Assembly (NCBI GenBank): GCA_900168235.1 | Contig: FUZG01000004.1 | Coordinates: forward strand, 124,001-188,000 | DNA length: 64,000 nt | Direction of reading: 5' to 3' | Source of the DNA: Lachnospiraceae bacterium | GTDB lineage: Bacteria; Bacillota; Clostridia; Lachnospirales; Lachnospiraceae | Shown: piece after piece, positions 15,421 through 18,638 of the stretch | Position numbering within the stretch: the stretch's first letter is position 1 | How the letters are laid out: every line of letters begins with the position of its first letter | Notes under the pieces: model-generated | Told to the model about the DNA's origin: nothing | Seen by the model: only the letters and a program-made list of their open reading frames with translations | The model's database searches: none | Program-made: the position numbers and the translations under genes

Positions 15421-15624
15421 ATGAAAAAGCAGTGGGGAACACCCGAATTAATGGAACTTAACATCAATGAGACAGCCCACAGATGGTTGGGTTGTTTTTG
15501 GGATGGCGGATACATCGGAGATGGAATAATCTCCGGTCACGGCACTTTTGATCCGAACGAAAGCCCTTGCTTCAATAAGCCTGAAGAGCCCAACCGCAGC
15601 AATCCGACTGAGCCGAAGAGCTGA
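15421..15624 (+). CDS. RiPP precursor peptide, lasso-peptide-like (paeninodin-type leader)
   Basis: 67-residue peptide with RBS CAGGAG before the ATG. The first 19 residues look like a lasso leader: W5-x-x-P8-x-L10...L13 matches the YxxPxL recognition motif with Trp for Tyr, and Thr18-Ala19 fits the conserved Thr at position -2. The predicted core starts at His20 and has Asp28 at position 9, where a macrolactam acceptor is expected. The rest has Cys25 and Cys50, a Gly-rich stretch (GDGIISGHG, 33-41), a Pro-rich tail and a C-terminal Ser67. A terminal Ser next to an HPr-kinase-like gene matches paeninodin-type lasso peptides phosphorylated on the last Ser. A 48-residue core would be long for a lasso, so further trimming or another fold is possible. 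Confidence 0.72.
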   Translation: MKKQWGTPELMELNINETAHRWLGCFWDGGYIGDGIISGHGTFDPNESPCFNKPEEPNRSNPTEPKS

Positions 15625-15649
15625 GTTCTGTTAAGATAATCAGATTTAG

Positions 15650-15689
15650 ATACCTTTGTATCATCCATATTGATACAAAGGTATTTTTT
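15650..15689 (+). terminator. strong terminator between RiPP precursor and its enzymes
   Basis: Perfect 13-bp arms (15650-15662, 15672-15684) with a 9-nt loop, followed by six T's. It lies 26 nt past the precursor stop and 37 nt before the kinase ATG. Partial read-through would give much precursor and little enzyme. Confidence 0.92.
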
Positions 15690-15726
15690 CGTATTGATAA
15701 AATGCTGAACAAACGGAAGGATAAGT

Positions 15727-16629
15727 ATGTTTCAATATCGGATATATGGTCTGAAACTGGATTCTGATATCCCGTTCAGACAGCTTATAGAAGATTCATC
15801 AGACACTGCTCCTGATATAATTTTAAGAAAAAGCGAACCGTCTCCTGCCCTTCTGGATCTTTCAAAAGATTCTTTTTTTGACATGGACCCGAAATTCTGC
15901 TGGTTCCATAACACCACACTTTTCTGTTGGATCGAGGACGGGACCCGTATTTTCTATTCACCGCAGGAAAATGCCAATGAAGAGTATCTGAAAACCTATA
16001 TATTGGGTTATGCCCTGTCCATGCTCTTTTATCAGCGAAAGATGCCCGCCATTCACTGCAGTGGACTCAGAAAGGGAGATCACGCCATTCTAATTTCCGG
16101 AAAGAGCGGTTCAGGTAAATCTACCATGGCTTCTCTTTTTCTTGATAACGGCTATGACCTTATGGCTGATGACGTTTTGGTCACAGCAGTCCGTGATAAT
16201 ACAGTTTACGGCTACCCTGCTTTTCCATGGACAAAGCTCCAGCGTTCTATTGCTGAAAAGCGCTTCCCGAATCTGGCAAATCTCATATATATTGACGAGG
16301 ATAAGGACAAATTTCTCGTTCCCTGGGAAGGCGAATTTCGTACAGACAGCGCTGTGGTCGATTCCATGTATATAATTATTGTTGCGCCTCCCGATACAGA
16401 ACTGCGTATTACAGAAGTGACCGGTCCGGATAAGATCATGCTGATCCTTGACAACATGTTCCCGCGACGCGAGATACTTCTTGATAAAAATAATCCTCTC
16501 GCAGTATCAATGGCGGCAAAGCTTGCATCATCACTGCGTCTGTACGCAGTCTTTCGCCCTGACGGGCAGGATACAGCTGAAAAAATGTATCAAATAATCA
16601 ACGAAACTATCGATTCGAGGGAAAAATAA
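15727..16629 (+). CDS. HPr-kinase-like P-loop kinase of the RiPP locus
   Basis: 300-residue protein resembling the C-terminal catalytic domain of HPr kinase/phosphorylase and the kinases of paeninodin-type lasso clusters. The Walker A loop GKSGSGKS lies at 125-132, preceded by His110 in AIHCSGL, and an acidic pair Asp148-Asp149 (MADDVL) follows, as in HprK-type kinases. In known lasso clusters such enzymes phosphorylate the C-terminal Ser of the precursor, and the precursor here ends in Ser. That role is inferred from context. The first ~100 residues are a less conserved N-domain. RBS GGAAGG precedes the ATG. The stop overlaps the cyclase ATG (TAATG), so the two are translationally coupled. 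Confidence 0.82.
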   Translation: MFQYRIYGLKLDSDIPFRQLIEDSSDTAPDIILRKSEPSPALLDLSKDSFFDMDPKFCWFHNTTLFCWIEDGTRIFYSPQENANEEYLKTYILGYALSMLFYQRKMPAIHCSGLRKGDHAILISGKSGSGKSTMASLFLDNGYDLMADDVLVTAVRDNTVYGYPAFPWTKLQRSIAEKRFPNLANLIYIDEDKDKFLVPWEGEFRTDSAVVDSMYIIIVAPPDTELRITEVTGPDKIMLILDNMFPRREILLDKNNPLAVSMAAKLASSLRLYAVFRPDGQDTAEKMYQIINETIDSREK

Positions 16630-18638
16630 TGTCAGCTATTATTGGATATCTGTTAAGTAAGAACGATACACGCGATGCTTCCGGCTTTCCGTCCACTATG
16701 GAAAGGACACTTCAAAAAAACGCACGGTTGGATTCTGTACAAAAAATTGTTAAAGACAGTGCTTATCTAGCTTGCGGACTTCAAAATATAACCGCCGAAT
16801 CTGCTTATGAGAAGCTCCCATTTTATAATGAAGAGCGCGGTTTTCTCTTCTCTTTTGACGGTATCCTTGATAACAGGGAAGCGCTGATCCGTGATCTCGG
16901 TCTTTCCTGCGAGCCAAATGAGATGATCGCTGACGGAACCATAGCATATCACGCATTTCTAAAGTGGGGAAACAGCACCCCCGAGCATTTCACCGGACTT
17001 TTCAGTTTTGCTGTGATCGATGAAAAGTCGGGCACAGTGCGTTTATTTACCGACCCTGTAGCTTCCCGCTGTCTCTATTACTATAAAAATCCTGCGGGCT
17101 CAATATTTTTCTCTACTCTTGCAGCTCCGATACGCGCCGTCTGTCCCGAGATCGGCATAAATGAGACTTATATGCAGGATTTTCTGGCAGCTCCGGGACT
17201 TATGCCAAATCTGGTGTCATATGAAACACCTTACAGCGATGTCTATATCATGGATCCGGGTAAAATGATTACACTCTCCGCGGATAAGCTTGAACAGAAA
17301 GCATGGTTTGATATCAGCTTCTGCAGCGAATCTTATGATTTTTCAAGCGCAGATAAGGCAGGCCAAGCTTTTCGGGCTTTATACGACGAGTGTGTGAAGG
17401 ATGCGACCCGTACAAGCGGCGAGATCGGAATTGCCATGAGCAGCGGCTTCGATTCCGCGACAGTCGGTTCTATTGCGGCAGACCATCTTTATAAACAGGA
17501 CCGTACGCTTTACTCATATACTTATTGCCCTCTGGAAAGAAAAGAACGCGAAAAAAACTTTGTTTTTGATGAAAGGGCAGATGTACAAAATATTGCATCT
17601 ATGCACCCTGCGATCAAAACACATTTTACAAATAATGACGGCAAGAATTGCCTGCAGGACCTTGAGCAGATCATTTCTATACTGGAGATGCCTGTTAAAG
17701 CTATTGCAAATTTCCCTAATCTCTGCGAGATTTACAAAAAAGCATCGGATCAGGGCTGTCGTATAGTACTCAGCGGACAGTGCGGAAACAGCACGGTTTC
17801 TCATGGTTACATTGATGATGTCCTGTGTGACCTGTTTCTCAAGAAAAAGTACTTCACATTTCTGCGCTATCTTAACCGCTACAGCAAAACTGTCCGTGAA
17901 AGCCGTAAAATGGCATTAAAGAACTGTATACGTTATTTCCGGTTTGCAGAAAGTGTCCTCTCCGGCAAAGCGGGATCAATATCCGAATATACTCCTTCTA
18001 ACAAATTTGTGAAAAAGGACTATTTTAAGGACTATCCGATTCGTGACAGATTTAAGAAGGGTGAGATTCCATACCTTGAGTCGATTCCTACCACCCATGA
18101 GCTTTACAGAACTTTTCTGCAGAAAAAAGCCCTTTGGACGTACATGGGCGCAATGGAAACGAAGCTGGGGCTTTATTATGGAATCGTTCTCCGGGATCCT
18201 ACAAAGGATGTCCGCATGCTCCGCTTCTGCTATGCCCTTCCGTATAAATATTTTGCATACATGGGTGAGCCTCGGTGGCTTGTCAGAGGAAACTGCAGGG
18301 ATCTGCTGCCTGCAGACCTTATTAATGACTGGATGCGGTACAGTGTACAAAATTATGACTATCTCGACCGCATCGAACGCGACTGGACTGATGTGAAAAA
18401 GAACCTTGCTTTTATTCTGGACATGGACTATTCTTCTTTTGCAGACCAGACTGAATTAAATACTTTTATTAACGGTGAGGAACCTGTTTCTAAAAGATAT
18501 TCCGACCCGGAAATAAAAGATTTTTTATTTGTTCTTTCTGCGGCTCTGTTTGCTAAGTGCAATTCTAACAACCAAATTGGAGGAATACATGCTAAAAACC
18601 ACAGTCAAAATAGATGGGATGATGTGCGGAATGTGTGA
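16629..18638 (+). CDS. asparagine-synthetase-like macrolactam cyclase (lasso cyclase-type)
   Basis: 669-residue protein with the AsnB two-domain plan. Residues 1-~210 resemble the class II glutaminase domain but start MSAIIG without the catalytic Cys2, so it cannot hydrolyse glutamine. The synthetase domain has the PPi-loop SSGFDS at 271-276 and a later LSGQCGNSTVSHGY block equivalent to the LSGxGGDE region. Loss of Cys2 with a retained ATP site is typical of lasso cyclases, which adenylate an Asp/Glu side chain and close the ring. RBS is within the kinase gene end. Its last ~50 nt overlap the next gene, and the C-terminal ~17 residues look non-conserved. The real substrate is unproven. Confidence 0.82.
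   Translation: MSAIIGYLLSKNDTRDASGFPSTMERTLQKNARLDSVQKIVKDSAYLACGLQNITAESAYEKLPFYNEERGFLFSFDGILDNREALIRDLGLSCEPNEMIADGTIAYHAFLKWGNSTPEHFTGLFSFAVIDEKSGTVRLFTDPVASRCLYYYKNPAGSIFFSTLAAPIRAVCPEIGINETYMQDFLAAPGLMPNLVSYETPYSDVYIMDPGKMITLSADKLEQKAWFDISFCSESYDFSSADKAGQAFRALYDECVKDATRTSGEIGIAMSSGFDSATVGSIAADHLYKQDRTLYSYTYCPLERKEREKNFVFDERADVQNIASMHPAIKTHFTNNDGKNCLQDLEQIISILEMPVKAIANFPNLCEIYKKASDQGCRIVLSGQCGNSTVSHGYIDDVLCDLFLKKKYFTFLRYLNRYSKTVRESRKMALKNCIRYFRFAESVLSGKAGSISEYTPSNKFVKKDYFKDYPIRDRFKKGEIPYLESIPTTHELYRTFLQKKALWTYMGAMETKLGLYYGIVLRDPTKDVRMLRFCYALPYKYFAYMGEPRWLVRGNCRDLLPADLINDWMRYSVQNYDYLDRIERDWTDVKKNLAFILDMDYSSFADQTELNTFINGEEPVSKRYSDPEIKDFLFVLSAALFAKCNSNNQIGGIHAKNHSQNRWDDVRNV

Follow-up and report, generated by a model that had tools for sequence, protein, structure and literature searches.

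Here we describe a cassette of three genes in a 64,000-nucleotide stretch of the genome of a Lachnospiraceae bacterium (GCA_900168235.1, contig FUZG01000004.1, positions 124,001 to 188,000; hereafter, the window). Paeninodin-type lasso peptide clusters comprise PadeA, PadeC, PadeK, PadeB1 and PadeB2. The window cassette encodes a precursor peptide (A), a kinase (K) and a cyclase (C), and the genome carries B1 and B2 only elsewhere. We consider it probable that this is a satellite paeninodin-type lasso cassette, served in trans by a B1/B2 pair that the lasso loci of the genome share. The three-gene locus proposed in a preliminary description of the window was recovered in full at 15421-18638, and its gene content, coordinates and motifs are firm:

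15421-15624, plus strand: precursor peptide (A), 67 residues (open reading frame call, motifs, purifying selection)
15433-15450, plus strand: WxxPxL leader motif, within the precursor
15472-15474, plus strand: T18 of the precursor
15502-15504, plus strand: putative ring acceptor D28, within the precursor
15502-15540, plus strand: DGGYIGDGIISGH block of the precursor core
15619-15621, plus strand: C-terminal Ser of the precursor
15648-15691, plus strand: 16-pair hairpin with T-rich tail (z -5.9), between precursor and kinase
15727-16629, plus strand: HprK-like tailoring kinase (K), 300 residues; H110, K131, D148, D149
16629-18638, plus strand: lasso-type cyclase (C), 669 residues; without Cys2; SSGFDS nucleotide-binding motif
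18560-18590, plus strand: 3' end of the cassette, where similarity to related cyclases stops and a heavy-metal-associated (HMA) domain gene opens at 18589 within the cyclase frame

The precursor, previously described as a 67-residue peptide with a W-x-x-P-x-L leader, indeed has W5, P8, L10 and T18. It starts with MKKQWGTPELMELNINETAHRWLGCFWDGGYIGDGIISGHGTF and ends in KS, and AGGAGA lies upstream of its ATG with a gap of five bases. The NCBIfam paeninodin model NF033524 touches its leader at 17.9 bits, below the cut-off of 27. The hairpin downstream is a candidate terminator or attenuator, which would favour the precursor over the enzymes. The adjacent kinase was correctly assigned to the HprK type: it retains H110, K131, D148 and D149, matching the His-Lys-Asp-Asp residues of lasso kinases, whose substrate is a C-terminal Ser (PMC9266682). 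These residues are intact in all 16 kinases aligned. Against PDB sequences the window kinase gave weak P-loop matches only, and neither kinase nor precursor reached the cut-off of any curated model. The first profile used to collect kinase neighbours also took in PF14907 nucleotidyltransferases; a later profile was free of them.

The third protein had been described as AsnB-like without the glutaminase Cys, and its N-terminus (MSAII) lacks Cys2. The best NCBIfam model for it is the lasso cyclase model, at 191 bits against a cut-off of 525; the general Pfam domains are the only models whose cut-offs it reaches. On the same model, eight further cyclases of the group, of which five come from other lasso loci and three from the window clade described below, scored 169-216 bits and none of the nine reached 525, so that a score below the cut-off is normal in this group. 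The ratio of nonsynonymous to synonymous substitution rates (dN/dS) against the same-genus isolate NK4A144 was about 0.22 for the precursor, 0.085 for the kinase and 0.10 for the cyclase, with dS near 1; judging from these values, purifying selection is acting on all three genes.

The absence of B1 and B2 near the cassette extends to the whole contig (C13), on which no match to PF13471 or PF05402 was found at E up to 10. A search of the whole genome (3.79 Mb, 99.9% complete) identified a single strong B1 and a single B2, which lie together on contig C11. The B1 is a PqqD-type protein (58 bits), and the B2 lies over the Pfam cut-off (62 bits) and over that of NF033537 (63.9 bits, cut-off 33). 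Contig C11 also holds a second lasso locus with its own precursor, kinase and cyclase, the last two being 28% and 29% identical to their window counterparts. The B1 gene is at most 1.5 kb from the C11 cyclase; the B2 gene, about 9.4 kb away from it, is surrounded by glycosyltransferase genes, with a PF14907 nucleotidyltransferase gene close by. Contig C11 encodes a further, weaker PqqD protein (37 bits, C11:182447), which lies near transporter-like and metabolic genes and was excluded from the lasso B1 count. The C11 precursor is letter-identical to the LasA listed for Lachnospiraceae bacterium KH1P17 in Table 3 of PMC7533575, where this strain has one listed locus and LasA, scored with LasB and LasC; this identity makes KH1P17, or a strain closely related to it, the source of the window. 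The window precursor and cassette were not found in the lasso sections and Table 3 of that paper.

To place the cassette, we searched 397 genomes of the family and found a cyclase (E up to 1e-60) in 11, five of them in the window clade; a pattern scan of an 84,980-species collection yielded 21 loci. The intact clade cyclases, 15 from as many genomes, formed one clade with support 100/100, a unity that is partly by construction, since five members of the satellite set supplied the profile used to collect it; whether B genes were absent was assessed independently of this. The duplicate L071 and the partial L077, L080 and L081 were left out. In this tree, which has no outside root and in which long branches are flagged for the AsnB rows and among four rows of resident cyclases, the window clade joins the resident lasso cyclases and is separated from the four asparagine synthetases (AsnB) tried, consistent with the earlier assignment. 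The neighbourhood of the precursor is also conserved: a leader-plus-core motif matched eight distinct loci, every one adjoining a window-clade cyclase. The motif was derived from the same peptides, and the 202 sequences scanned (1.62 Mb) overlap in many cases and are mostly lasso loci; in 20 mononucleotide shuffles of the window it had no matches.

As assembled, the searched flanks (up to 10 kb) of the 15 clade loci never contain B1 and B2 together. Neither B gene is near the cassette in 12 of them, three of which (L064, L066 and L072) are on short contigs. A single B gene was found in the other three: B2 at L068 and L079, and B1 at L067, whose contig has 3.8 kb to the right. In the genome of L067 (G399), the contig with the satellite and B1 and the contig with B2 (L107) each terminate in a precursor gene, the two genes being 90% identical over 280 bases, so that the contigs may be neighbours, with both B genes near. 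In NK4A144 the cassette is on contig C5, and B1, B2 and a second lasso locus are on contig C2, which is the layout of the window genome.

The distribution of B1 and B2 across genomes points the same way. B2 was found in 12 of the 397 family genomes, four of the five with a clade cyclase versus eight of the 392 others (Fisher p 2.4e-6), making it about 40 times commoner in cassette genomes of this sample; in a third same-genus genome the search found neither B2 nor, at E up to 1e-60, the cyclase. Clade cyclases were present in 17 genomes, two of which are represented by partial genes alone (L077 and L081); 13 of the 17 had both B1 and B2, one had B1 only, and three had neither. The isolates named as such in their records (NK4A144, Acetitomaculum ruminis and Butyrivibrio sp. 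INlla14) all have both. At least two lasso cyclases were found in 13 of the 17 genomes, and 11 of these 13 have exactly one B2 over the cut-off and one strong B1 of at least 47 bits (B1 was searched only to E 1e-8 in 12 genomes). Matches to NF033535 were called lasso cyclases by neighbours, N-terminus and score, with the doubtful L172, L185 and L195 omitted. The genome of INlla14 has three cassettes on three contigs; B2 adjoins one of them, and the only B1 found lies on a fourth contig without other lasso genes. This B1 must therefore act in trans, if every cassette needs B1. The idea of a sub-family that uses B proteins in trans thus stands for gene content (one B1 and one B2 on C11, and a split that recurs in relatives), while the sharing itself is something that we regard as probable rather than observed.

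B1 and B2 were also seen at two loci (L101 and L102) without a cyclase in 20 kb, the cassettes being elsewhere in the genome (in G407, the closest one found is at a distance of about 20 kb). At L101 a PF14907 nucleotidyltransferase gene adjoins B2.

Under the proposed pathway, the kinase would phosphorylate the C-terminal Ser of the window precursor. The B1 encoded on C11 would bind the WxxPxL leader and hand it to the C11 B2, which would cut the leader just past the T-A region. The cassette cyclase would then activate Asp28 with ATP and join it to the new N-terminus. The predicted product is a ring of eight (or nine) residues around a long tail rich in Pro and Asn, presumably threaded.

Where the leader is cut sets the start of the core and the size of the ring. 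The distance from the leader W to T is 13 residues in all 26 precursors compared. The preliminary description placed this Thr at -2, the published position (PMC10368454), but comparison within the family makes -3 more likely. Thr is mostly at -3 in rumen lasso predictions, with Gly1 first (PMC7533575), and all 15 resident lasso precursors compared have Gly at T+3 and an acidic residue (D or E) at T+10 or T+11. By the -3 rule, the window core starts at Arg21 and closes on Asp28 in a ring of eight, and in NK4A144 the same rule gives Gly1 and Asp8. By the -2 rule, the core starts at His20 with a ring of nine, and L064 and L074 would need a ring of 10. We tentatively prefer the -3 placement (Arg21 start, ring of eight). 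Either way the core has 47-48 residues. Its length had been taken as a departure from ordinary lasso cores; it is indeed long, but in this setting long cores are no rarity, as published rumen predictions reach 42-44 residues (PMC7533575).

The precursors of the window clade fall into two sub-families. In that of the window (8 loci), D at T+10 or T+11 is followed by G[GA]xxGDG, and the C-terminal residue is Ser in seven of the eight, NK4A144 having Ser-Cys. The sister sub-family (5 loci: L069, L070, L072, L075 and L083) has a tail with two NPYW-like repeats, conserved as LGxCxNxYWxGNG...NP[YF]W, and its C-terminus is not Ser; its precursor genes lie near positions 12000-12400 in L069, L070, L075 and L083, and at 7741-7935 in L072. 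D or E at T+7 to T+12 is absent in two of these five precursors (G401 and G402), and an ordinary lasso may be a doubtful product for the NPYW-repeat peptides. No precursor was recognised at L073 and L079.

Several observations weigh against a shared B1/B2 service acting on this cassette. B2 over the cut-off is absent from four of the 17 clade-cyclase genomes, all of them metagenome assemblies, one 93% complete; among genomes with several lasso loci, one (G115) has two B2 genes and another (G285) has none. Satellite and resident leaders are no more alike within than between genomes (p 0.23 for 11 genomes, p 0.24 for 9 genomes), so the match expected if they were tuned to a shared B1 was not found. 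The co-occurrence of cassette and B2 could also arise because lasso-rich genomes carry both. Mapping by hand puts Thr69 and Gly73 of the C11 B1 at the positions of PbaB1 E75 and Q79, which are not strongly conserved according to the PbaB1 source paper. Finally, the first core residues observed in lasso peptides are Gly, Ala, Ser or Cys, with Asn once, in metanodin (PMC12670498); the first residue of the window core (Arg21 or His20) is outside this list by either rule.

Some of these observations would be explained if the cassette worked without B1 and B2, a general protease trimming the leader and the cyclase taking the trimmed peptide. The genomes without B2 fit this idea, and a 2019 paper on pseudomycoidin reportedly describes, by its title, lasso synthesis without leader and leader peptidase. 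A B-free pathway would, however, not need a gene under purifying selection whose leader retains WxxPxL (or WxxA) with T at a constant distance. The B2-less genomes are, as noted, metagenome assemblies, and B2 is strongly enriched in the cassette genomes of the family sample; we regard this alternative as unlikely. We think it hardly more plausible that the cyclase makes a crosslink other than an N-terminal macrolactam, giving a product that is not a lasso. Under the -3 rule, residue 1 is not Gly in six of the eight precursors of the window sub-family; moreover, the tail is long and conservation of the DGGYIGDGxISGH-type core unusually high, and the sister sub-family includes the two precursors without a candidate acceptor. 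Yet an Asp is found at T+10 or T+11 in eight of eight window sub-family precursors, as D or E is in the 15 residents, the window cyclase groups with lasso cyclases, and a non-Gly first residue has the precedent of metanodin. The non-lasso product raised in the preliminary description is thus not needed for the window sub-family, which has leader motif, acceptor Asp, kinase and a lasso-clade cyclase; it is more plausible for the NPYW sub-family.

A decaying remnant of a formerly complete cluster would account for the missing nearby B1 and B2, and for a cyclase that has lost the stop of its relatives and runs into the next gene; but dN/dS is 0.085-0.22, the conserved motifs are intact, and layouts with none or half of the B pair occur across the clade, making this very improbable. 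That an ordinary asparagine synthetase lies beside an unrelated kinase and a chance small open reading frame seems next to impossible: kinase and precursor are under all curated cut-offs and the cyclase exceeds only general Pfam ones, against which stand its position in the tree, scores in the range of its group, the conserved precursor motif and kinase residues, and dN/dS. We rejected the remnant, asparagine synthetase and chance-frame readings on motifs, model scores, tree, dN/dS and motif scan.

The satellite cassette served in trans therefore remains our preferred explanation, and its surroundings were compared with those of its relatives. The last ~23 residues of the window cyclase have no homology to its closest relatives, whose stop and following hairpin are missing at the window 3' junction. 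The cyclase frame overlaps an HMA-domain gene at 18560-18638, and GGAGG precedes the HMA ATG; these last residues look like read-through past a lost stop. Cassette proteins aside, nothing encoded in the window matches the flanks of the NK4A144 cassette (7-9 kb) or the left flank of L064 (9 kb); the left flanks of these two are alike, as judged by eye. Different neighbours and a cyclase without the stop of its relatives are consistent with the three genes having moved as a unit. No mobile element was recognised, and no flanking repeats (of at least 16) mark the cassette ends. The G+C content is 0.42-0.46 across the enzyme genes versus 0.38-0.43 in the surroundings, with no clear step, and no Rfam families were found in the window. 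Two open reading frames adjoining the NK4A144 cassette (L031 11918-13266) resemble what we take to be an AbiE-type pair. On the contig of G401, cassette copies L070 and L071 lie in opposite orientation near the two contig ends, with identical gene coordinates and precursor, reflecting either duplication or an assembly artefact. Three distant relatives (27-35% identical) are on plasmids; the one with its surroundings examined, on the 243-kb plasmid pNP243 of Butyrivibrio fibrisolvens D1 (L201), belongs to a complete lasso locus with glycosyltransferase genes around it.

Compared with known systems, the window cassette shares with paeninodin clusters the WxxPxL leader, the His-Lys-Asp-Asp HprK-like kinase, the Cys2-less AsnB-like cyclase and the C-terminal Ser, and differs in lacking B1 and B2, in its long core and in a residue 1 that is not Gly. 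Its leader and D/E spacing resemble those of rumen Lachnospiraceae lasso loci, including that of KH1P17 (PMC7533575). Linear polyphosphorylated peptides (LPP) have a YxxP leader, an SpI-like peptidase and an HprK-like kinase, and no cyclase (PMC13381572); the cassette resembles them in its [Y/W]xxPx[L/V]-type leader motif and kinase, and LPP share genomes with lasso loci, whereas the window has a WxxP leader and a cyclase (no search was made for an SpI-like peptidase). Removal of the leader by an enzyme encoded elsewhere recalls the unclustered proteases of lanthipeptides (PMC8960859), which concern another peptide class and another protease; here the leader-binding protein is elsewhere too. 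Among the matches listed for the open-access literature (subscription papers and supplements being outside this scope), we found no report of shared lasso B proteins acting in trans.

More broadly, we tentatively propose, at a little short of even confidence, that recognition and removal of lasso leaders in Lachnospiraceae works as a service common to the genome, in which a single B1 and a single B2 attend to several scattered, movable A-K-C cassettes, and that the window clade is a new family with long tails and C-terminal phosphorylation. Its core would be of the [HY]-x-W-x-G-x-Y-x-DGGYIGDG-x-[IV]-SGH type, some members having a first residue off the observed list (e.g., Arg). A conserved core with a non-Gly first residue offers a test of the tolerance of lasso cyclases at residue 1. 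Lasso genome mining usually seeks precursor, B and C genes side by side, so cassettes without B genes are overlooked or scored as incomplete; should a single B1/B2 pair indeed serve several cassettes, current counts understate the lasso products of a genome. The specificity of B1 would then be a property of the genome, and a cassette could settle wherever a resident pair exists.

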